DNA from: Acidobacteriota bacterium
GTDB taxonomy: Bacteria; Acidobacteriota; Blastocatellia; Pyrinomonadales; Pyrinomonadaceae
Assembly: GCA_029557535.1 (NCBI GenBank)
Contig: JAKQII010000340.1
Coordinates: forward strand, 1 to 55,831
DNA length: 55,831 nt
Direction of reading: 5' to 3'
A program made the position numbers and the translations under genes. The notes under the pieces are model-generated. The model did no database searches and was not told the origin of the DNA. It was given only the letters and a program-made list of their open reading frames with translations. Within the stretch, counting starts at the first letter, position 1; each line of letters starts with the position of its first letter. Positions 39,146-55,478 of this stretch are shown piece after piece.

Positions 39146-40948
39146 CTATGCCGATTGCGCCTGCGACCAGCCATCGCCGTTCCAGTCCTTGACGACGCCG
39201 ATCGGTTCCGGAACATCGCCGATCGAGAACAGCGGAAACTCTCCGCGTTTGGCGCGCAGGTCGGCTCGGAGCGATTCGGTCGCTCCCTGGTCGATGGAAA
39301 GGTCCGGATTAAGCACGACGCCGTAATCGCTCCTTGCTTTTGCCGCCGAAACCAACCCGTTGCGGACGTCTTTCCGGACGAGCTCTGCCGGCCGGTCGAA
39401 CGGGTCCTTCCAACCTCCGCCGCCCGCCGTCCGATACACGAGGATGTCGCCCTTCTTGACCGGGATCCGGGAGATCTTCGACGCCAGATTCTCGCGCGTC
39501 CCGTCGGTCCGGATCAGTTCCTTGGTCGACATCGCGCCGGGCAATCCGCCCATGATGCCCCACGGTTTTGAGCGCTCGCGATCGTCGTGGATCGCGATCT
39601 CGCCGTCGGCCTCATACCGATAAACCTTGTGAACGGCGTTGCCGCCGCGATGGAATCCGGCGCCGCCGGTGTCCATCAGACTGCCGTACTCGAGAACTGT
39701 GATCGGGTAATAGCTCTCGAGATATTCGGTCGGAATATTCTCGAACAACGGCCACCATGAATGCGCGTCCATGCCGTCGCCCATCGGTCGGCCCGGAATT
39801 CCGCCGTAGGTGATCTCCATCAAATGGAAGAATTCGCCGTTCTCGTCGTGCCCGTTGTAGAGCATGTACGGCGACGTGCCGTAACCGGCCGCCGTCGAAA
39901 GTTCCGGCGCGCCTTTGCCGAGCGCCCCGCCGAGAACGTCGAAAAGCCGCGTCAGCGCATGCGTCCGGCAACCGAGCGCCGCCGGAAACTCCGGATTGAG
40001 CAACGACTTTTCGGGAATCGTGACGTGCAGCAGCGGGTAGAATCCGTCATTGAAAAGGATCTGCGGATCGAAGACCATGATCAGATAGACGCCGATGAAC
40101 ATCTTGAACATCTCTTCGTTGAGATAAAAGTTGATCGGCCCGGGCGCCTGCGGATCCGTTCCCGTCCAGTCGAAATACGCTTCGTGACCCTTGCGGTAGA
40201 TCGTCAGCTTCATCTTGTACGGGCCGTTGCCGCGCCCGTCATCGTCGATGTAATCCTCAAATTCGAGCGGCGTTTCGGGCAGGCACATGACGATCAACTG
40301 TTTCATCGCCTCATGCGTGCGGTCGAGCAGCATCTCGAGCCCCTTGATGTATTCGTCCTTGCCGAAACGCTCGCACATTTCACGCACGCGCTTGTCGGCC
40401 GTCCGGCAGGCGGCGACGATCGCCATCAGGTCGAAATAGTTCATCGTCGGGACGCGCGAGTTGGCGAGGATCATGTCGAGCAAATCGTCGTTGAGTTTGC
40501 CGCCGTCGAACAGCTTCACCGGCGGAATTCGCGTCCCTTCGCCGAAGATCGTGTCGGCGTCGGTCGGAAGGCTTCCCGAGACCGGGCCGCCCATGTCGAC
40601 CGTGTGCCCGAACTGCGATCCCCAGCCGACGAGTTCGCCGTCGTAGAAGATCGGCATCAGCACCATCCAGTCATTGATGTGCGAGATCGCGCCGCCGCAA
40701 CTGTACGGATCGCTGACGAGGAACACGTCGCCTTCGTTAACGCCGCGCTTCCAGTTGGCGAGAAAACCGTTGATGTACGACCCGAACTGGCCGACGACCA
40801 TCCGTCCGTCGGGATGGCAGATCATCGGAAAACCGTCGTGCTGCTCGCGGATGACGGGCGACATCGCCGATCGGAAAAGCACCGAGTCCATCTCCTCGCG
40901 CGCGTTTCGAAGCGCATTCTCAAGAATATCGAGCGTTATCTTATCCAT
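39146..40948 (-). CDS. hyuB: Hydantoinase/oxoprolinase family subunit HyuB
   Basis: This is a 600-residue HyuB-type subunit: MDKITLDILENALRNAREEM, SPVIREQHDGFPM, LVSDPYSCGGAISHINDWMV, GHTVDMGGPVSGSLPTDADT, and C-terminal YRTAGGGGWKDPFDRPAELV. With HyuA it hydrolyses cyclic amides using ATP. It heads an operon with the isochorismatase-like amidase and two membrane proteins. The operator and -10 region are 26 bp upstream. The partner hyuA is at 27728-29779 on the other strand. Confidence 0.92.
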   Translation of the reverse strand: MDKITLDILENALRNAREEMDSVLFRSAMSPVIREQHDGFPMICHPDGRMVVGQFGSYINGFLANWKRGVNEGDVFLVSDPYSCGGAISHINDWMVLMPIFYDGELVGWGSQFGHTVDMGGPVSGSLPTDADTIFGEGTRIPPVKLFDGGKLNDDLLDMILANSRVPTMNYFDLMAIVAACRTADKRVREMCERFGKDEYIKGLEMLLDRTHEAMKQLIVMCLPETPLEFEDYIDDDGRGNGPYKMKLTIYRKGHEAYFDWTGTDPQAPGPINFYLNEEMFKMFIGVYLIMVFDPQILFNDGFYPLLHVTIPEKSLLNPEFPAALGCRTHALTRLFDVLGGALGKGAPELSTAAGYGTSPYMLYNGHDENGEFFHLMEITYGGIPGRPMGDGMDAHSWWPLFENIPTEYLESYYPITVLEYGSLMDTGGAGFHRGGNAVHKVYRYEADGEIAIHDDRERSKPWGIMGGLPGAMSTKELIRTDGTRENLASKISRIPVKKGDILVYRTAGGGGWKDPFDRPAELVRKDVRNGLVSAAKARSDYGVVLNPDLSIDQGATESLRADLRAKRGEFPLFSIGDVPEPIGVVKDWNGDGWSQAQSA

Positions 40949-41142: not shown

Positions 41143-42594
41143 CTACCCCGCGATCTCTTTGACGACTCGTTCGGCCGATTCGAGCGCGCCTTCCATTCCG
41201 GGAGATATCTCGGCTGTATGTTCGCCCGCAAAATGAATGTTGCCGACGGCCGTTTTGACGTGCGGTTTGAGGCCGGTCACGTGCCCGACGGCAAAGTGTG
41301 CGTACGAACCGCGGACGAACTCATCGTTGGTCCAGGACTTTGTTGCCGATCTCTCGATCATGCCTTTCATGAACGGCAGCGCGCGGACGAATTCGGTCTT
41401 CGCCCACGCGATCCGGGCCTTATCCGAAAGCCGTTCGGCCATCGCCGCGCCATCGCCGTCCATCCAGGCCGTAAAGATCCCGCGGTCCCCGCCACGGACA
41501 CCGGCCATTTCGAAGATTCGTTCGAGCGGCGTATCGGTCCATATACTCGTCGAGATCGAGCGGCGATCCCACTCGGACCGCTTCGACTGCATAAAGACCT
41601 TCGTGATGTGCGTGTACGGAAGTTCCCGGATCGCCGCCGACTTTCCAGCGGGCAGCGCCGGCGTGAACTCAATATCGCGCAGAACAGAGAAAGGGATCGT
41701 ACACACCGCCTTTTCAGCCGTGAGCGTCCGTGGTTTTCCGCGCGGCCCGGCGAACGTCACGGACACCGTCGCCCCATTCCGCTCGATCCGTCGGATGCGC
41801 GATCCGAGGATGAACTTTGCGCCGGCCGCGACGGCCGCGCTGTGGAGCGCCTTCACCAGACCATCGTTGCCGCCGACGATCCGGACCGCCTTCGTGCCGG
41901 CGCCGATACGCCGCCGCGCGTCGAATAAAACGCCGGCGGCCGAAACGGTTTCGATCGAGTTGTAATTGAGTGAAACGTTCATCAGGCGGATCGCTTCGTC
42001 CGTTACTCCGCGCTTCCGCAGAACTCCCGCGAGCGACATCCGGTCGAGATCCCGCATCGATTCCGGCGCTTTGGCAACTTCCTGTGCGAGTGCCCGCACG
42101 TGCGTCGCAAGCAGCGTCGGCGGCAAACCCGCGGCTTCCGGTCCCTTCAAGCCGTACGGATGCGGATCGAAGACGGTGCCGACCGGAAAAAGTCTGCCCT
42201 TCATGATCGCGGTCGTCCCGGTTCCCGTCTTAAGCGTCGAAACCGAACCGCCCGTCTCGAACGCCGACGGAACCTCTTCAAAGGGAACGTTGAGTGCCTT
42301 GAGGTAGCCGATCATCCGCTTGTACCCATCGCCGATGAGCTCGCCGCCGAGTTCGACATACTGGCCACCAAGGAATGGATCGCGCAGGGTCACGACGCGG
42401 CCCCCGACCCGGTCGCGTCCCTCGATGACGGTCACGCTGAAGCCGCGTCGGGCGAGTTCGACAGCCGCCGACAATCCCGCGAGACCTGCTCCGAGAACGA
42501 GTACACGACGTTGGTCACCGGCCCGCGCAACCTGAGCCGCGGACGCGACCAGCGCGCCGGCTCCCGCAATAAATTGCCTTCGCGTCAATTTCAT
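41143..42594 (-). CDS. TAT-exported flavin monoamine oxidase-like protein
   Basis: This is a 483-residue FAD-dependent amine oxidase family protein. MKLTRRQFIAGAGALVASAA is a twin-arginine signal. The FAD site is RVLVLGAGLAGLSAAVELAR with VIEGRDRVGGRV following. The C-terminus has VRGSYAHFAVGHV and IHFAGEHTAEISPGMEGALE, the FAD-binding end of the family. It would oxidise an amine, or a pyrrole-like compound, in the periplasm. The substrate is open. It is downstream of the DUF1838-like gene by 14 bp, in the TonB receptor operon. Confidence 0.9.
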   Translation of the reverse strand: MKLTRRQFIAGAGALVASAAQVARAGDQRRVLVLGAGLAGLSAAVELARRGFSVTVIEGRDRVGGRVVTLRDPFLGGQYVELGGELIGDGYKRMIGYLKALNVPFEEVPSAFETGGSVSTLKTGTGTTAIMKGRLFPVGTVFDPHPYGLKGPEAAGLPPTLLATHVRALAQEVAKAPESMRDLDRMSLAGVLRKRGVTDEAIRLMNVSLNYNSIETVSAAGVLFDARRRIGAGTKAVRIVGGNDGLVKALHSAAVAAGAKFILGSRIRRIERNGATVSVTFAGPRGKPRTLTAEKAVCTIPFSVLRDIEFTPALPAGKSAAIRELPYTHITKVFMQSKRSEWDRRSISTSIWTDTPLERIFEMAGVRGGDRGIFTAWMDGDGAAMAERLSDKARIAWAKTEFVRALPFMKGMIERSATKSWTNDEFVRGSYAHFAVGHVTGLKPHVKTAVGNIHFAGEHTAEISPGMEGALESAERVVKEIAG

Positions 42595-42608: not shown

Positions 42609-43379
42609 TCAGGGCTTCTGCAGCTCCTCTATCTCCGCAAGATCCTTCGGCGGACTCATCCACAGGCGGCCGTCGGATTCAAGCGCCTCGCGCATCGACT
42701 CCGGCAGGTCCCGATACCGGTCAACGCGGTATGAAACGAGCTGGAACACGCTGTCGCCGCCGCCGAAGAACGGTGGCAGACTACCGCGGCGGTTCCACGT
42801 CAGCTGATATTTTCCAGCACTTCCCGTTGCCTTCGGATTGAAAAAGAAATCGTAGTTTTCGTAGGCCTTGTAGCTGGGAAGATCGAGGAAAAGCGGCGTT
42901 GAGAAGATCGTCGTCGAGCCGAACCGCCGGATGTGGAAGGTCCCGGCCGATTCGATCGTTTGCACGCGCGGTTGTTTGCCCTGTACGACAGTCGCCCGGA
43001 TCCGCCCGTCTTTCAGCTCGTAGGTTATCTTCTGGTACGGATAGGCGATCGGCTCGACCTTCTTCCCGTTCCATTGACGCAGGATCTGACCACCCGCCGG
43101 GTCGCGGTAAAAGAAGATCTTTCGGGAAAGCTGGAGTTTCTTCGTCGGACCGGACTCAGCTTTGACGACGCGGGCCGTGTCGATCCCCTCGACCTTGGCG
43201 ATCAGCTTACCCGACGGATACTCGTAGATCTCGCCGACGCAATACCAATAGATCGGCTCGCCGCGGCCGATCCGCATCGTCGTGAAATCGTCGAAATCCT
43301 TCGGCGTAAATTCCTGCGCCCCAGCTAAGGAACAGGAAAAGATCAGTATTATCAACGGAAAAACAAGTCTATTCATCAT
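42609..43379 (-). CDS. Secreted DUF1838-like protein
   Basis: This is a 256-residue exported protein (signal MMNRLVFPLIILIFSCSLAGAQ). The mature part has RIGRGEPIYWYCVGEIYEYP, LSRKIFFYRDPAGGQILRQW, FSTPLFLDLPSYKAYENYDF and SYRVDRYRDLPESMREALES. This layout matches DUF1838, a family of unknown function often beside degradation genes. A paralog lies at 53430-54299. Both are exported and both are next to VOC, oxidase or receptor genes of the island. Confidence 0.78.
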   Translation of the reverse strand: MMNRLVFPLIILIFSCSLAGAQEFTPKDFDDFTTMRIGRGEPIYWYCVGEIYEYPSGKLIAKVEGIDTARVVKAESGPTKKLQLSRKIFFYRDPAGGQILRQWNGKKVEPIAYPYQKITYELKDGRIRATVVQGKQPRVQTIESAGTFHIRRFGSTTIFSTPLFLDLPSYKAYENYDFFFNPKATGSAGKYQLTWNRRGSLPPFFGGGDSVFQLVSYRVDRYRDLPESMREALESDGRLWMSPPKDLAEIEELQKP

Positions 43380-43399
43380 TGCAAAAGTCGTGAAGTCCG

Positions 43400-43840
43400 T
43401 TACATTCCCTGATTGGCGATCCGCGACGACTGCAGCGACACGATGCGCCACTTTCCGTCCGTCCGCCGGAAGACCGCGGTCACGCGAAACCTGGCCTCGT
43501 CGAGCGTTTTCCGCTTGCGAGTGTTTTGATAATTGACGACGACGATGCTCTTCGATAAGTGGATGAACTTCAGGTCGTCATTGCGGTAGATCTCGAACGG
43601 GTTCTTAAGGTCCGCCAGCGCCTCGGTCTTCGAATAGACCTTCCCGCTTTGCGACGTCAGCTGCAAACGATCGTCGTAGATCTCGCCGCCGGCGCTGACG
43701 TTGTTCGATAATGCCGCCGCGGCCAATCGATCAAGCACTGCCGTTATTTCCTTTTCGATCCGGGCCGAACGGTCCTGACCGGTCGCCGACCCGCATAGCA
43801 GCGTCGCCGCGACGGCGATTGCCCATATTGCTTTCTTCAT
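43400..43840 (-). CDS. Secreted SnoaL/DUF4440-like protein
   Basis: This is a 146-residue exported NTF2-like protein: signal MKKAIWAIAVAATLLCGSAT, then EKEITAVLDRLAAAALSNNV, EIYDDRLQLTSQSGKVYSKT and RVTAVFRRTDGKWRIVSLQS. The final WRIVSLQSSRI is typical of DUF4440. Activity unknown. Its start overlaps the CpcT-like stop by 4 nt (ATGA). Confidence 0.82.
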   Translation of the reverse strand: MKKAIWAIAVAATLLCGSATGQDRSARIEKEITAVLDRLAAAALSNNVSAGGEIYDDRLQLTSQSGKVYSKTEALADLKNPFEIYRNDDLKFIHLSKSIVVVNYQNTRKRKTLDEARFRVTAVFRRTDGKWRIVSLQSSRIANQGM

Positions 43841-44808
43841 TGCTTTACTGTGAATCCGGCCTGAATCCACCGGAGGTTGATGCCGATTCGCGTCGCATCC
43901 TCGTTTGCCCAGGTGTAGGCGACCGTCTTTCCTGTCGCGTTCTCGACGACGCCGAGCTTGAGAACCCGAGTTCCGTTGCGATAGGCAAGCTGCGACAACT
44001 CGGCCGAGAAACGCTCATTGATCGCGACACGACCGCCCTGATCGTGGATCGTCAGATTGCGTTTGCCGTCCCACGAGTCGGCCGGAAGGTCCTCGCCGCG
44101 CATTTCGGTCGAACCGTCCTTGAGAACCGCGGTCCAGCCCTCGAACATCCTCGCCCGCCGCAGTTTGTGATGAGTGTTCGATCTGTTGCCGAAAACATAA
44201 TTTCCCTGCTCGTCGCGCGCCTGGTCGTTGATCCAGATCTCGTCCTTCGTCAGGAAAAGATCGTCCGAGATGATCAGCGTCTTCCCGCTCCGCTTGCTGA
44301 CGACGCGGCAGGCGCCGGGCTTCATCGATCCTTCAAACTTGTCGCGCGTTGCATTCAATCGCCAGTAAACCTCGCAGCCCTTCGGGGCGTCGAGTTTATC
44401 GGCGGTCAGGCCCCGCAGCTTTGCCGGATCGAGATGTGCGTTCATTACGGCCTTTTCGTCGGCAAAGGTGTTGATCTTCAGCTCGATCGCCTTCTCGGCC
44501 TTGCTGATCGTGAACACATAAAGCCGTTGACGATAGATCTTCGTCTCGTCGCCATCCATGAATTGCTGCACATAAAAAACGTACTCGCCGATCTGCGGAA
44601 GATCGACGCGCTTGAAGATCGAATGGATCCGTTCGTGCGGAAATTCGGCTTTCGAATCCTTCTCCTCGACGGTCTGCGCGAAATTGTCGAAACGGCCGTC
44701 GAACCACGTCAGGAAAAGCCTCATATCATCTTCGAGCTTCGTTTTTGCCGAAGCGCTGAAGGCCATATTTACTACAAACAACGTTGAAAGCAGAATTTTC
44801 TTGGTCAT
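43837..44808 (-). CDS. Secreted CpcT/CpeT-like protein, second copy
   Basis: This is a 323-residue exported protein (signal MTKKILLSTLFVVNMAFSASA). LFLTWFDGRFDNFAQTVEEK, GEYVFYVQQFMDG, IYRQRLYVFTISK and PKGCEVYWRLNATRDKFEGS match the CpcT/CpeT bilin-lyase-like layout also seen at 26876. It is about 100 residues longer than the first copy, with an added C-terminal part (GWTAVLKDGSTEMRGEDLPA onward). It lies directly downstream of the TonB receptor and ahead of the DUF4440, DUF1838 and oxidase genes. Confidence 0.78.
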   Translation of the reverse strand: MTKKILLSTLFVVNMAFSASAKTKLEDDMRLFLTWFDGRFDNFAQTVEEKDSKAEFPHERIHSIFKRVDLPQIGEYVFYVQQFMDGDETKIYRQRLYVFTISKAEKAIELKINTFADEKAVMNAHLDPAKLRGLTADKLDAPKGCEVYWRLNATRDKFEGSMKPGACRVVSKRSGKTLIISDDLFLTKDEIWINDQARDEQGNYVFGNRSNTHHKLRRARMFEGWTAVLKDGSTEMRGEDLPADSWDGKRNLTIHDQGGRVAINERFSAELSQLAYRNGTRVLKLGVVENATGKTVAYTWANEDATRIGINLRWIQAGFTVKQ

Positions 44809-44966: not shown

Positions 44967-47831
44967 TTATTTCTTCAGAAAATTGAAGACTTCAATCGTG
45001 AAACCAAAAACAAAACTCCGTCCGGGAGCCGGAGCCGTATTGAAATGCTCCCAGAACAGCTCGTCCGTCAGGTTGTCGATACCGGCGTTGACCGACCACT
45101 TGTATTTGTCGTTGCGCCATGAGTATCCGGCCTTGATCGCCTGCTTATCGAAGCTGTTCATGCTTGCAAACGATCCGTAGTTGATGAGCGTCGTGCCGAC
45201 GAATTGCCCCGGATCGGCGCGCTTCACACGGTTCTGGTGACGCCACGAGTACTCCGCGTAGAACCGACCCGTTCGATCCAGATACTGGACCCCTCCGATG
45301 AACCGGAACGGCGTGATTCCCGGGAACGGAAAATCGGTGGCCGAACCGGAAAGCGGGATCAGCGTATCCGATCGGTTGTAGACGGCGTTGATCTGCGCGA
45401 TCTGGGTCGTGGTCGGATTGTCGTTTCGTCCGTAAAGCGCACCCAATGTGTAAAACGGGTTCAAGCTTCCGAGCTTTCCGAGCGGAATACTCCCTTCGCC
45501 CGTCGACTCCCAACCCCTGATCAGACCCGAACCGAAGTTGATCCGTGCGTTGATGCCCACAACCGCCTGTCCGGCAACGCAGCCAAAGGCCGTCGCCGCG
45601 GGGCTGCCCGGAAGTCCGGGAACCGGCGTCACACAGTAGTTCTGCGCCGGTGCGTAGTTGAGAAAGTTCGTCAGCTCGTTGCGGAAGTATCCGAGCGAGA
45701 AATTGAAATATTTCTGTTGGACCTTGACGCCGACGTCGTAGTTCTTTCCGGTCTCCGGACTTAGATTCGGATTGCCGACGACGAGTGACGCGAAAAACGA
45801 TCCCGGAGAGAAGTTGCGGATCAGATAGCGCTCGGTGATACCGGGTTCGCGGTAGCTGCTGGCCCAGCGGAAATACGGGTTGATTCCCCACGGAAGCCGT
45901 CCCACGATCCCGAAATTATACGTGCGGGACGTGCGGTTCGACCCGACCGATCCGGTACCGCCGGCAAGTTGCGTCAACTGCGGCAGCGATGCGACGAGCG
46001 ATCCGAGCGCGCCCGGATTGGCGGTCAGACCGGGCACCGCGGCATTGAGCGCCGCGAATTCCGTGCTGAGCGGGAATCCGCCCCCCGGCTGGGCGTTCGT
46101 GACCCAGTTGTCGAATCTTATGCCCGCCGTTAGCCGCACCCAACGGATGCGGTCGAACTCGCCCTGGACATAGAAATTGTTGTCGGTGTAGTCCGAGAGC
46201 GGCGAGCTTGCACCGATCGTTGCCGTGCCGGTGAGTACCCGCTGCGTCCCGAAACCGGCGAACGGTGAAGTGTAGAAGTAGTCGCGCGAATCGTCCTTCG
46301 TGCGACCGGCTCCGACGGTCACGAGCATTCCGCGAAACGGAAGGAGCGCCGCTTGAACGTCTAACCCCTGGGTCGTGATCGTGTTCCGGTTATCCGTGAA
46401 CGATGCACCCGACAGCGTGCCTGTCGGAAGCGCTCCCGATCCAAAGATGGACGGGTTTCCGGTGAACGTCGTCGAATTCAGGTAGCTGCCCGCGGCCCCC
46501 GAAATATTCGTGAAAGTATATTGATTCTGCGGGAATGAGATCTTTTGATGAAAGAAGTTGACCGAGACGCGGGGGATGAACTTTGCAAGCTGGTAACCTT
46601 CGTATCGAACCCCAAACTTATCGAACGAGCGGTACTGGGAATAACGTTCCTGAACCTCGTACGGCGGTCCGGAAAAAGCGTTTCCGTTGTTTCCTTCGCC
46701 GCGATTCAAATAGCGACCGCGGAAATTGTGCTTCTCGGACGGGAAGAACCAGACGTCGAACTGCTTCCCGCCGCCGCTCCCCTGGCCGTTGAGGATCTCG
46801 GCATTCTTCGGCAGCGCGAAGATCGGATAGCTCGCGGCCGACTGGAACGTCGTGCCGGCGGCGTTTGTCGGGAACTGGCGGAAAAAGTTGCCATACGTGA
46901 CGTTCTGAGCAAGCGTGACCTCGCCGCCGCCCATTTTGTAGTTCTCGAGCCGGTACAGATTGCCGCTTGCGCGGAACGCCGCAAATTTGTTGGCGATGTT
47001 GAGCGTGAGGTTGCCGCGCCGGATCGCGCCGTTGGTCAGATAGTTTCCGTCGAGCCGCATGCCGATAATCGTTCCCTGGTCGGGACGCACCGGAGCTTTC
47101 GTCACGAGATTGATCGTGCCGGCGATCGAGTCCGAACCGTAAAGGCTCGAGCCCGAACCCGCAACGACCTCGACCGATTCAAGCTGCGACGGATCGATGA
47201 TCCCCATCGGCGCGCCGCTCGCACCCGGATCGGAGCGCGCGTTGTTCAACTTTTCGCCGTCGATGACGACCAGAAGCCGCGTCGAAGAAAGTCCTCGGAG
47301 CCGGGGACGTTCACGCGCCGGATTCGTTTCGATCGACGTCAGGTTGGGCGCACGTTCGATGGTCTCAAAGGTCGAGCGCGGCAAACGCTGTTCGATCTGG
47401 TCAGACGTCGCCACCGTTACGGTTTGCGGCGTTTCGACCGCCAGGCGTTCCGTTCCTTTGCCGGCGGTCACCGTGACCACGTCGCGGATCGCACCGGGGG
47501 CGAGCGTGAAGTCACTTGTGACAGACGCTCCGGCGGCGGTGATCACCACGTCCTGGGCGACCTCGCCGAATCCTTTCCCCGAAGCAATAACGCGGTAATC
47601 TCCCGGCCGAAGTCCGCTGAACTCAAAGCGCCCGCCGGAATCCGTGGTCACGTTCGTCCTTCGCCCGGTCGCCACGTCGAAAAGCGTTACCGCGGCGCCG
47701 GGAACCACGGCATCGTTCTGGTCACGAACAGTACCTGAGATCTTCCCGCCTACTTGGGCAAACGCCGTCGCCGCGAGCATCACGAGCATCGCGGTACTGA
47801 TTAATATTCTCGTCTTGATTCCTACGAACAT
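44967..47831 (-). CDS. TonB-dependent outer membrane receptor with N-terminal carboxypeptidase-regulatory-like domain
   Basis: This is a 954-residue receptor. After the signal (MFVGIKTRILISTAMLVMLA...AFAQ) comes a carboxypeptidase-regulatory-like domain (about 28-110: KISGTVRDQNDAVVPGAAVT). The plug spans about 110-240 (RPRLRGLSSTRLLVVIDGEK, VEVVAGSGSSLYGSDSIAGT). The rest is a beta barrel ending FVFGFTIEVFNFLKK, with the aromatic last strand needed for insertion. It takes up a large or scarce substrate. Its place behind palindrome D and before CpcT-like, DUF1838 and oxidase genes suggests import of the pathway's substrate. Confidence 0.93.
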   Translation of the reverse strand: MFVGIKTRILISTAMLVMLAATAFAQVGGKISGTVRDQNDAVVPGAAVTLFDVATGRRTNVTTDSGGRFEFSGLRPGDYRVIASGKGFGEVAQDVVITAAGASVTSDFTLAPGAIRDVVTVTAGKGTERLAVETPQTVTVATSDQIEQRLPRSTFETIERAPNLTSIETNPARERPRLRGLSSTRLLVVIDGEKLNNARSDPGASGAPMGIIDPSQLESVEVVAGSGSSLYGSDSIAGTINLVTKAPVRPDQGTIIGMRLDGNYLTNGAIRRGNLTLNIANKFAAFRASGNLYRLENYKMGGGEVTLAQNVTYGNFFRQFPTNAAGTTFQSAASYPIFALPKNAEILNGQGSGGGKQFDVWFFPSEKHNFRGRYLNRGEGNNGNAFSGPPYEVQERYSQYRSFDKFGVRYEGYQLAKFIPRVSVNFFHQKISFPQNQYTFTNISGAAGSYLNSTTFTGNPSIFGSGALPTGTLSGASFTDNRNTITTQGLDVQAALLPFRGMLVTVGAGRTKDDSRDYFYTSPFAGFGTQRVLTGTATIGASSPLSDYTDNNFYVQGEFDRIRWVRLTAGIRFDNWVTNAQPGGGFPLSTEFAALNAAVPGLTANPGALGSLVASLPQLTQLAGGTGSVGSNRTSRTYNFGIVGRLPWGINPYFRWASSYREPGITERYLIRNFSPGSFFASLVVGNPNLSPETGKNYDVGVKVQQKYFNFSLGYFRNELTNFLNYAPAQNYCVTPVPGLPGSPAATAFGCVAGQAVVGINARINFGSGLIRGWESTGEGSIPLGKLGSLNPFYTLGALYGRNDNPTTTQIAQINAVYNRSDTLIPLSGSATDFPFPGITPFRFIGGVQYLDRTGRFYAEYSWRHQNRVKRADPGQFVGTTLINYGSFASMNSFDKQAIKAGYSWRNDKYKWSVNAGIDNLTDELFWEHFNTAPAPGRSFVFGFTIEVFNFLKK

Positions 47832-50967: not shown

Positions 50968-52491
50968 ATGGCGCAACTCCACGAACACAGAGCCAAGCAG
51001 ATCCTTGCGGCACACGATATCCCGATTCCACGCGGCCGGGTCGCACGCGATGCCGACGAAGCGCGGTCGATCGCCCGCGAATCGGCCGGCCCGGTCGTCG
51101 TCAAGGCCCAGATCCACTCGACGTCACGCGCCGCGGCCGGCGGGATCAGATTTGCCGATTCGCCTGATGAAGCGATGGACGCCGCGCGGGCGCTCATCGG
51201 CAAAGAGGTCGGGGGAGATCTCTGCGAAGCCGTGTTGGTCGACGAGAGACTCCCGATCGACCGCGAGTTTTACCTTGGCTTCATCATCGACAATGTCCTC
51301 AAGCGCCCGACCCTGTTGTTCTCCGCGGATGGCGGGAGCGGGATTGAAGACCGCGCCGCGTCGATGCGAAAACTTGTCTGCTCGGTCCGATCCGAGCCGA
51401 CGATCGAAACGATCCGTGAATTTTTGGGCCCTGACGCGGGCAATGACCGGGACGCGATCGCCGTGATCCTGCTCGGACTTTATCGCGCCGCCTTTTCCTG
51501 CGAGGCACGGACGGCTGAGATCAATCCGCTCGCGAAACTCAGCGACGGACGGCTTGTCGCCGTCGACGCGCGAGTTTCAGTCGATGACTACGCCGTGTTC
51601 AGGCACGCCGATCTCGGGATCGACATGGCGCGCGAACTCGGCCACACGCCGACCAAGCTCGAACGCATCGCCTGGGACGTCGAACGTGACGACTTTCGCG
51701 GGACGTTCTACTTTGTCGAGATCGAGGGCAACGGCGATTCCGGAGGGGCGAAGATCGGTTTCCACGGCGCGGGCGGCGGCGGATCGATGGCGTCGCTGGA
51801 TGCAGCCCAGCGGAACGGGCTGTCGCCGGCCTGTTACGTCGACACCAGCGGCAATCCGCCGGCTTCAAAGGTCTACCGCGCGGCGCGCATCATCCTTTCG
51901 ATCCCGGGCACCAAAGGCTATTTTCTTTCGGGTTCCGGCGTCGCCAGCCAGGAGCAGTTCGGGCTCGCCCGTGCCGTGCTCAAGGCGTTCCTCGAGGTTC
52001 GACCGCGCATTCCGGCGGTGCTCCGACTCGGTGGCAACGGCGAGGACATCGCCAAAGAACTGGTCGAGCGCTACGCGCCGATGCTTCCGGCGCCGATCGA
52101 GGCTTTCCGCAAAGAGGACTCGGCCGACAAATGCGCCGAACGTTTGCGCAAACTGATCATTGACGCCGATCCGCCGACGATTGACGTCCGGCCGGCCGTT
52201 GCGGATTTCAGAGAAGATTACCGATTCGAAACGCGGACAGGATCCGTCGCGTTCGACTACTCGCGGATCGATCTGCGGTCCGCGCGGCAGATCACCGAAT
52301 CTTGTCCGCAGAAGATCCTCAAGGTCAACGACGAAGGCCGGCCGGAACTGGCGATCGGGCGCGACGAGGCGGCTCGCGGAAAATGCACCGAGTGTCTGGC
52401 GTGCGAGTTTGCGGCGCGCGATCTGGGGCTCGACGCCGTGCGGATCGAATTCCCGATCCCGGGTCTTGAGACGACACGGGAGGGCGGCTGA
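50968..52491 (+). CDS. SucC-like ATP-grasp CoA-ligase subunit with C-terminal FixX-like [4Fe-4S] domain
   Basis: This is a 507-residue protein. The first ~410 residues match the beta subunit of succinyl-CoA-synthetase-type ligases: MAQLHEHRAKQILAAHDIPI, GPVVVKAQIHSTSRAAAGGI, ARTAEINPLAKLSDGRLVAV, GGNGEDIAKELVERYAPM. SucC is normally about 390 long. The extra C-terminus (about 410-507) holds four cysteines, ESCPQKIL (C446) and GKCTECLACEF (C473, C476, C479), in the CP...CxxCxxC arrangement of FixX/ETF-quinone oxidoreductase-type ferredoxin domains. It therefore looks like a CoA ligase beta subunit fused to an iron-sulfur domain. It is followed 4 bp later by a SucD-like gene. Confidence 0.88.
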   Translation: MAQLHEHRAKQILAAHDIPIPRGRVARDADEARSIARESAGPVVVKAQIHSTSRAAAGGIRFADSPDEAMDAARALIGKEVGGDLCEAVLVDERLPIDREFYLGFIIDNVLKRPTLLFSADGGSGIEDRAASMRKLVCSVRSEPTIETIREFLGPDAGNDRDAIAVILLGLYRAAFSCEARTAEINPLAKLSDGRLVAVDARVSVDDYAVFRHADLGIDMARELGHTPTKLERIAWDVERDDFRGTFYFVEIEGNGDSGGAKIGFHGAGGGGSMASLDAAQRNGLSPACYVDTSGNPPASKVYRAARIILSIPGTKGYFLSGSGVASQEQFGLARAVLKAFLEVRPRIPAVLRLGGNGEDIAKELVERYAPMLPAPIEAFRKEDSADKCAERLRKLIIDADPPTIDVRPAVADFREDYRFETRTGSVAFDYSRIDLRSARQITESCPQKILKVNDEGRPELAIGRDEAARGKCTECLACEFAARDLGLDAVRIEFPIPGLETTREGG

Positions 52492-53407: not shown

Positions 53408-53429
53408 TCGAGACCGGACGGAGGACAAG

Positions 53430-54299
53430 ATGAAAAAAATTGCACTTATGTTATTTGTTGTCGCGCTCCTGTCGGCGGGCGCTACGGCGCAGGGCGGAAA
53501 GACAAAACGGAGCATTCAGCAACTCGGGGTGGAGGCAAACTTCGCGCGGCCGGACGGCAAGGACATGGTCTTCTACATCAAGGGGTGGGCCTATTCGTTC
53601 ATACCCGGCGAGCGTCCGCAAAAGCTTTTCGGCGTCGACGGCTATAACATCCGGCGGCGGGTCGACACGCCGGAAAAGGACGGCTTCTTCCTCTCGACGC
53701 GCGAGATCGTGTTCTACACCGATCCAAAGACGGACGAGATAATCGACGAGTGGACGAATCCCTGGACGAAGGAGAAATGCGAGGTCTTTCACATTCAGAA
53801 CGATCCGGTCAACGGCCGGTTCCGCGTCCGCGACGGCAAATACATCAGCGTTTCGATGGACGGCAGATCCGAACGCGGCGAGCTCTCTCCGCCGGCGGAG
53901 ATCGGAGACCACCTTGTCTGGACGTCGGACGTCTTTCCGTTTTATCCGCTGCCCGGATTCGATCGGAACTACACCGCGAGCGAGATGTTCGACTTTTACG
54001 TTGAAAAGGAAGAGCTTTACAAAACGACGCCGCCAAAGAACGTGATGATCAGCTGGACACGTGTCGGACCGTGGCTGCCGTGGATGAAGATGCCGAAAAA
54101 CGACGGCGTGATCATCATCCACGCGCGCAGCTATCGCATGGAATCGTGGGAACTGCTTCCCGAGAGGATCAAAAAGATCGTGCGCGACAAATATCCCTCG
54201 TACATGACGGCGCCGGCGACGGTCGATCCGGCAAAGCCGAACGAGACGTCGTGGACCTTCTACAACCGCGTGATGGCGGAGAGGAAATCAAAGCAGTAA
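53430..54299 (+). CDS. Secreted DUF1838-like protein, second copy
   Basis: This is a 289-residue exported protein (signal MKKIALMLFVVALLSAGATAQ). The mature part has RRVDTPEKDGFFLSTREIVF, YTDPKTDEIIDEWTNPWTKE, FPFYPLPGFDRNYTASEMFD and VMISWTRVGPWLPWMKMP, in the DUF1838 layout also seen at 42609. GGAGGAC is placed well before the ATG at 53430, which fixes the start. It follows the SucD-like gene by 22 bp, so an exported protein is in the same run as cytosolic CoA enzymes. Confidence 0.78.
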   Translation: MKKIALMLFVVALLSAGATAQGGKTKRSIQQLGVEANFARPDGKDMVFYIKGWAYSFIPGERPQKLFGVDGYNIRRRVDTPEKDGFFLSTREIVFYTDPKTDEIIDEWTNPWTKEKCEVFHIQNDPVNGRFRVRDGKYISVSMDGRSERGELSPPAEIGDHLVWTSDVFPFYPLPGFDRNYTASEMFDFYVEKEELYKTTPPKNVMISWTRVGPWLPWMKMPKNDGVIIIHARSYRMESWELLPERIKKIVRDKYPSYMTAPATVDPAKPNETSWTFYNRVMAERKSKQ

Positions 54300-54413: not shown

Positions 54414-55478
54414 ATGACTCGAACCATTATTTTCATTCTCTTGATTTCAATGACCGTTATGGCTCAGAACACTACGATCGGCGGCGTTTACGAGGCCGGA
54501 ATCGGCGCGACGGATGAAAAACCGCTCATTGCCTATTTTGAGCGGTTCGGCTATCGCGTCGGGGCGTCGGGCGAGATCGACGCCGCGAAGGCATTCGAAC
54601 TTTACGGGGTGCGATCGAAACTGCGTTCGATCAGGCTGCAGCATCTCGACTCGGATCATGGGCTGATCCGGATCATGGTTTGGGAAAAGCCGACCAACGA
54701 CGGCCTCCGGATGTCGCGAATGAACGTCCTCGGCAACCGTTGGGGAGCGATGATGACGGGCGACATCTACAATCTCCAAAATCACGCCGAAGAGGCGATC
54801 GCTCAGAAGATGCCTGTTTTCCTCGTTGAACCGCAGCGGGCCGAGATCTACAAGCTCGAGAAGCGGCCGACGCCGTTCCTCGAAAATTACGCAACGGTGC
54901 GCGAGATGTGCCTGATCCAGCCGCTGACCCGGCAAATACTCTTCCAACGCTTCGGGTATTCGCTGAAAAACTACGGAAAGATCAACGAGGATTCGTTTTT
55001 CAGATCGTCGCAGATCACGCATTTCGGAATGGTCGTCTACGCCAACCGTGAAAACCTGGATTTCTACGACAACGTGTTGGGCTTGCTGAGGGCGCGCGAC
55101 CACCAGGGCTACGACGCGACGTACGAAAATCCGTCCGCGCGCGCCGTTTTCAGCCTTGAGAAACACCAGAAATACGGCGCCACCGATTTCGACGATCCGC
55201 GAAGTTCGACCAACCCCGCCGAGGCCCGTTCGGGCCGGCTGAAGATAATCTGGTTCTCGCCGGACTCGAAACTCGACGACAAGACGGAGTTCTCACGTCC
55301 CGGAAGTCTCGGCTATTCGCTTTACACATATCGTGTGACCAACGTCTCCGAATATCACCGCCGGATCGCGAAAAGCAAGGCGACCAAACTGAGCAACATC
55401 ATCACGGATGAATTCGGGGAAAAGAGCTTCTCCTTTCGCGCGCCTGACGGTTACGACTGGGTGATCGTTGGGAACTGA
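54414..55478 (+). CDS. Secreted VOC (glyoxalase-fold)-like protein
   Basis: This is a 354-residue exported protein (signal MTRTIIFILLISMTVMAQ). VYEAGIGATDEKPLIAYFER and ITHFGMVVYANRENLDFYDN mark two glyoxalase-like modules. The C-terminus GEKSFSFRAPDGYDWVIVGN matches the end of a VOC unit. An exported VOC protein is unusual, since most are cytosolic. It is the last clear gene of the island, and resembles in layout the cytosolic VOC protein at 36832. Confidence 0.75.
   Translation: MTRTIIFILLISMTVMAQNTTIGGVYEAGIGATDEKPLIAYFERFGYRVGASGEIDAAKAFELYGVRSKLRSIRLQHLDSDHGLIRIMVWEKPTNDGLRMSRMNVLGNRWGAMMTGDIYNLQNHAEEAIAQKMPVFLVEPQRAEIYKLEKRPTPFLENYATVREMCLIQPLTRQILFQRFGYSLKNYGKINEDSFFRSSQITHFGMVVYANRENLDFYDNVLGLLRARDHQGYDATYENPSARAVFSLEKHQKYGATDFDDPRSSTNPAEARSGRLKIIWFSPDSKLDDKTEFSRPGSLGYSLYTYRVTNVSEYHRRIAKSKATKLSNIITDEFGEKSFSFRAPDGYDWVIVGN

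Follow-up and report, generated by a model that had tools for sequence, protein, structure and literature searches.

The window analysed here, a contiguous stretch of 55,831 nucleotides, encodes a 507-residue protein that an initial annotation described as a SucC-type CoA-ligase subunit extended by a C-terminal tail with four cysteines. This raises the question of whether the tail is a genuine iron-sulfur domain, where it came from, and what it could be doing on an enzyme whose reaction transfers no electrons.

A CoA-ligase beta subunit with a C-terminal iron-sulfur-type domain

The reading frame was found to be open throughout, and its product (hereafter SucC-Fd; Table 1) matched ATP-grasp_2 over residues 3-189 (2.9e-37, above the Pfam cut-off) and SucC models over residues 3-370 (1e-56 to, at best, 3.5e-58), in agreement with that description. 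Scores fell below the curated SucC equivalog cut-offs (197.5 bits vs. 370; 192.2 vs. 375.55), and the protein exceeds SucC by approximately 110 residues, the tail itself spanning approximately 85 residues after a linker. A separate, ordinary SucC of approximately 398 residues without tail is encoded in the same genome (G000:C18). A frame or assembly artefact was ruled out, given that independent full-length orthologs from other genomes (61-70% identity) share the same C-terminal tail and that GC3 is alike in core and tail (0.77 and 0.76). The open reading frame was confirmed to encode a SucC/ATP-grasp CoA-ligase beta subunit followed by a C-terminal iron-sulfur-type domain.

Table 1. Positions of SucC-Fd, its parts and neighbouring genes in the window.
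Feature	Position	Strand	Basis or remarks
SucC-Fd (CoA-ligase beta subunit + ferredoxin domain, 507 aa)	50968..52491	+	open ORF, profile matches, ortholog alignment
ATP-grasp / acid-binding ligase core, residues 1-390	50968..52137	+	profile, alignment, fold matches
Variable linker, residues 391-416	52138..52215	+	alignment, pLDDT dip
Ferredoxin domain, residues 417-501, one predicted [4Fe-4S] site	52216..52470	+	models, fold matches
C446 codon (last Cys, motif I)	52303..52305	+	invariant in orthologs
C473, C476, C479 codons (CxxCxxC, motif II)	52384..52404	+	invariant in orthologs
Family motifs in SucC-Fd core: DTSGNPPASK (residues 292-301), SGSGVASQEQF (residues 321-331)			alignments
Short citrate-synthase-fold protein, 254 aa	48013..48777	+	annotated citryl-CoA lyase family; H62, H97, H141, D190 conserved
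HD-domain protein, 189 aa	48777..49346	+	conserved neighbour
MmgE/PrpD family protein, 457 aa	49386..50759	+	2-methylcitrate/citrate dehydratase type
SucD-type alpha subunit, 303 aa	52496..53407	+	phospho-His motif SHAGAI conserved (H255)
Operon flanks (see text)	44970..47831, 41146..42594, 42612..43388	-
Operon flanks (see text)	53427..54296, 54414..55475	+
CpeT/CpcT-family protein	43840..44808	-
Hydantoinase B gene	39149..40948	-

AlphaFold modelled the whole of SucC-Fd at a mean pLDDT of 89, with values of 94-98 in the tail (91 when modelled alone) and a fall to 58 around residues 401-410 of the linker, whose length, measured from C389 to a TG motif, varies between 25 and 75 residues across relatives. 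The core matched the folds of succinyl-CoA synthetase, citryl-CoA synthetase and ATP-citrate lyase. For the tail, Foldseek retrieved pyruvate:ferredoxin oxidoreductase (PFOR) delta, P. furiosus ferredoxin and Rpb3-type RNA polymerase subunits (E = 0.007-0.04), and VIA-align retrieved PsaC, FwdF and PFOR delta (Z of 6-7, up to 7.1), scores that are moderate given the small size of the domain and insufficient alone. Taken with the matches of most relatives to Fer4 models (see below), they lead us to predict a ferredoxin fold, as the initial annotation had anticipated. The evidence for the fold comes from models, since a PDB sequence search with a tail profile gave weak matches, the closest being 8ys5_D, the ferredoxin subunit of a 2-oxoglutarate:acceptor oxidoreductase (E = 0.046), and a second search gave a weak match as well (E = 0.29).

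Cysteine pattern, origin and distribution of the tail

The tail cysteines are exactly the four named in the initial annotation, C446, C473, C476 and C479, with C446-P447 fitting the proposed CP...CxxCxxC pattern, and all were invariant both in the first orthologs (8/8) and in a wider alignment (40/40). Relatives were searched in one genome per species of GTDB release 220, and the best 80 of 363 were retained. An eight-cysteine CxxCx4CxxxC...CxxCxxCxxxC arrangement, the two-cluster ferredoxin pattern, was found in 73 of these 80, the remaining seven carried precisely the four cysteines of the window protein, and no intermediate pattern was seen in the set. In two-cluster ferredoxins, one cluster is bound by the first three cysteines of motif II together with the last cysteine of motif I; by this rule the four that were kept make up one full ligand set, and the four that were lost make up the other. 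We infer from this all-or-half distribution, the strongest evidence available at the level of sequence, that real clusters are bound.

In the phylogenetic tree, the window protein clustered at 100/100 with six four-cysteine sequences, several of them named Pyrinomonadaceae, and the seventh (L086) was placed elsewhere, which implies that one cluster site was lost twice. The outcome was the same when the tail residues were left out, although the placement of L086 is less sure because of its long branch. Since most relatives match dicluster Fer4 models and carry eight cysteines, the four-cysteine form can be read as a reduced one; on these comparisons, the tail in the window derives from a two-cluster ferredoxin, one of whose putative clusters was lost. 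Scanned alone, it gave sub-threshold Pfam matches (Fer4_11, E = 0.019; Fer4_9, E = 0.049), so that the domain would be missed without its relatives. Fer4_9 was matched by 40 of 43 family members (best 4e-6) and the OorD model by 34 of 43. The family thus resembles two-cluster bacterial ferredoxins and the ferredoxin subunits of 2-oxoacid oxidoreductases (OorD, PFOR delta) in the cysteine pattern of the relatives and in predicted fold, but differs from them in being fused to a CoA ligase and, in the window clade, in having a single cluster site.

The retention of four out of eight cysteines in the window clade could also be taken to mean that the tail is a decaying remnant whose cysteines bind zinc or nothing. 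This is very improbable, as the four are invariant within the clade, form a complete single-cluster set, have no intermediate patterns beside them and represent a state reached twice independently. Hardly credible at all, and rejected on the basis of the eight-cysteine relatives and the profile scans, is the acquisition of a true FixX/ETF-QO domain, as the initial annotation had supposed from the cysteine spacing: relatives keep the dicluster form, and Fer4_ETF_QO (PF05187) was matched in the Pfam scan by one of eight four-cysteine members (E = 0.096) and not by the window tail. The iron-sulfur domain of FixX and ETF-quinone oxidoreductase is a similar one-cluster remnant with a CP...CxxCxxC pattern. 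Reduction from eight cysteines makes this resemblance understandable without common descent, the SucC-Fd tail having been reduced independently inside its own family, with no family-level sequence match to FixX/ETF-QO. ETF-QO was also absent among the fold matches listed for the tail, which proves nothing alone. Of the initial proposal, therefore, an iron-sulfur domain fused to a SucC-type subunit stands, on conserved cysteines and predicted fold, and its assignment to the FixX/ETF-QO family does not.

The best 80 of the 363 relatives were nearly all metagenome-assembled and belonged to more than 10 phyla, including Acidobacteriota, Chloroflexota, Aminicenantes, WOR-3, Zixibacteria, KSB1, Calditrichota, Neomarinimicrobia, Cloacimonetes, Gemmatimonadetes, Myxococcota and others, some loci being one genome reached twice (e.g., L039 = L004, L119 = L043). 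Within the phylum of the window, the family was detected in 30 of 396 sampled genomes. This sample yielded 25 new loci, with eight cysteines in 22 and four in one, a stop codon inside the tail in another and a contig edge in the last; no tail-less family members were present among them. No relative of the tail was found in viral contigs, the matches listed from a plasmid collection were all below 60% identity and ended by residue 420, none covering the ferredoxin tail, and Rfam returned nothing in the window. The fused ligase-ferredoxin architecture, initially judged to be non-standard, was not described in the literature searched, which was covered in part.

Operon context and candidate substrate

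SucC-Fd had first been regarded as an isolated, odd SucC; it sits instead within a conserved citrate-type operon, ordered in the window as lyase, HD protein, MmgE/PrpD, SucC-Fd and SucD. The recurrent order among the best 80 of 363 loci was SucC-Fd, SucD, lyase and HD protein, followed by varying sets of LeuC, LeuD, a dehydrogenase and PrpD. The recurring LeuCD are aconitase-like, and the dehydrogenase is of the isocitrate/homoisocitrate type, scoring highest with homoisocitrate models. SucD and the lyase are fused into one protein in several Chloroflexi (L051). SucC-Fd and the short lyase co-occurred in the identical 8 of 60 related genomes and in no other, two further genomes of this set having small C-terminal citrate-synthase fragments only. 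The lyase scored above the curated citryl-CoA lyase family cut-off. H255 of SucD and H62, H97, H141 and D190 of the lyase are conserved across relatives, and we take the SucD phospho-His and the lyase His/His/Asp to be catalytic.

Several features of the surroundings were recorded in addition. The HD protein has LADVGK in place of the usual HD, with the Asp and VGK conserved in 37 relatives. The operon is flanked by genes for a TonB-dependent receptor, an FAD amine-oxidase-like protein, two DUF1838 proteins and a glyoxalase/VOC-like protein, several of which also recur beside the operon in other genomes of the four-cysteine clade, a hint of uptake or catabolism of some compound in that clade. 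The window also includes a hydantoinase B gene and, in this Acidobacteriota genome, a CpeT/CpcT-family protein (E = 1.7e-30), a family known from phycobilin attachment in cyanobacteria. Eight Chloroflexota loci (L051, L054, L056, L057, L060, L063, L072 and L110) have sugar-type ABC transporter genes upstream of SucC-Fd and several ADP-ribosylglycohydrolase-like genes preceding it, unlike the aconitase/dehydrogenase setting elsewhere. In Acidobacteriota relatives, a dihydropyrimidinase/allantoinase-like amidohydrolase follows PrpD (L053:15864-17306).

Regarding known systems, the best overall sequence and fold match was to the succinyl-CoA synthetase beta subunit, SucC (3ufx_B, 1.2e-89 by profile), from which SucC-Fd differs, apart from its score, its length and the separate SucC of the genome, in altered acid-binding motifs. 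The acid-binding half was closest to citryl-CoA synthetase (6hxq_B, E = 2.3e-13), with GNPPA.K.Y common to both; the loop that follows, SGSGVASQEQ, is family-specific and differs in 6hxq_B, so that an acid other than citrate may be the substrate. The citryl-CoA synthetase and citryl-CoA lyase of Hydrogenobacter thermophilus likewise comprise SucC-like, SucD-like and citrate-synthase-fold lyase components, but the 429-residue 6hxq_B has no ferredoxin domain, and the SucC-Fd operon adds HD, PrpD and aconitase-like genes. ATP-citrate lyase (Chlorobium, human ACLY) is alike in ligase fold and in the SucD-lyase fusion seen in Chloroflexi relatives, whereas identity in the fold matches was 17-26% and its structures have no iron-sulfur domain. 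CCS/CCL genes occur both separate and fused in Planctomycetes (PMC5459899), and the available part of that account makes no mention of an iron-sulfur domain.

These likenesses point to an ATP-dependent ligase/lyase for citrate or a close analogue. SucC-Fd would be the beta subunit of a tricarboxylate-CoA ligase forming, with SucD and the short lyase, a three-component, ATP-citrate-lyase-like system, in which SucC-Fd/SucD would convert acid, ATP and CoA to an acyl-CoA, and the lyase would cleave the latter into acetyl-CoA and a 2-oxoacid, or catalyze the reverse; citrate would be the likeliest substrate. Full-length citrate synthase is also encoded in most host genomes, and citrate cleavage would consequently need control. 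It was not found in G043, G067, G070, G072, G079, G082 and G093, and for this reason these seven genomes may have no route other than the module, incomplete assemblies or a Re-type citrate synthase being other possibilities.

It is possible, although we consider it somewhat unlikely, that the same ligase/lyase acts on 2-methylcitrate, homocitrate or another tricarboxylate in a side pathway rather than in citrate metabolism, a reading compatible with whichever role the ferredoxin domain plays. The adjoining MmgE/PrpD gene, the homoisocitrate-type dehydrogenase and homoaconitase-like genes, the peculiar acid-binding loop and the citrate synthase already possessed by most genomes would all fit such a pathway; the annotation of the lyase as citryl-CoA lyase above a curated cut-off and the seven genomes lacking a full-length citrate synthase suit citrate better.

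Possible roles of the ferredoxin domain

The tethered domain would bind one [4Fe-4S] cluster in the window protein and two in most relatives. As the ligase chemistry involves no electrons, the domain could be a redox gate, an electron carrier or docking arm, or a structural element, and sequence by itself separates neither electron transfer nor a structural role from gating. A gate, by which the ligase would be switched according to the redox state of the cluster, appears most likely for a reaction of this kind. It is preferred on three grounds: where citrate synthase and a citrate-cleaving enzyme coexist, a futile cycle has to be avoided; partners of the POR/KOR type are missing in four host genomes; and one cluster is dispensable. 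One example of its purpose would be to stop the ligase from working in a futile loop against the cell's ordinary citrate synthase. The explanation as a whole, namely a tricarboxylate-CoA ligase working with a lyase, with citrate as likeliest substrate and the ferredoxin as redox gate, is our leading one and is held tentatively.

A role as electron carrier or docking arm is rather doubtful. The domain would relay electrons between a redox enzyme, for instance a 2-oxoacid:ferredoxin oxidoreductase, and partners in a complex processing the acetyl-CoA and 2-oxoacid that are formed. The variable linker that tethers the domain would suit this role, as would the proximity of the tail profile to 8ys5_D, the OorD matches of the family, the apparent, divergent pieces of 2-oxoacid oxidoreductase subunits adjoining SucC-Fd in L114, and the presence of POR_N in 32 of 36 host genomes. 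However, POR_N is common anyway (above cut-off in 55 of 60 related genomes), which makes its presence uninformative, and it was not matched in the other four hosts (L041, L043, L044 and L045), nor in G023; POR/KOR was accordingly rejected as an obligatory partner. Moreover, 2-oxoacid oxidoreductase genes are adjacent in only one of the best 80 of 363 loci, and half of the clusters can be lost.

Alternatively, and with less likelihood still, the cluster would have no redox role and would aid structure or assembly, as in the iron-sulfur domain of the archaeal RNA polymerase subunit D/Rpb3. In its favour, Foldseek placed Rpb3-type subunits among the top matches for the tail, the ligase reaction works without redox chemistry and one of two clusters is dispensable; on the other hand, core and domain are separated by a variable linker, and such a role gives no need for the eight cysteines kept in most of the best 80 relatives.

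Returning to the redox gate, a fused ferredoxin beside genes for an electron-free, citrate-cleaving-type reaction suggests that this step is controlled by, or coupled to, cellular redox state. It is conceivable, if far from certain, that SucC-Fd represents a widespread undescribed ATP-dependent citrate-cleaving or citrate-forming enzyme with its own ferredoxin on the ligase subunit, in which the redox state of the ferredoxin pool would directly determine how fast, or in which direction, carbon flows through citrate. The family, which annotation can easily label as an ordinary SucC, could be one more version of such an enzyme that has gone unnoticed (cf. PMC9802188) in Acidobacteriota, Chloroflexota, Aminicenantes, WOR-3, Zixibacteria, KSB1, Neomarinimicrobia and others. 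With a ferredoxin on a non-redox enzyme, the idea that redox state directly controls central carbon flow becomes open to test, and nature has supplied a ready comparison in the two lineages that went from two clusters to one, within a fusion that has been maintained in hundreds of mostly uncultured bacteria.
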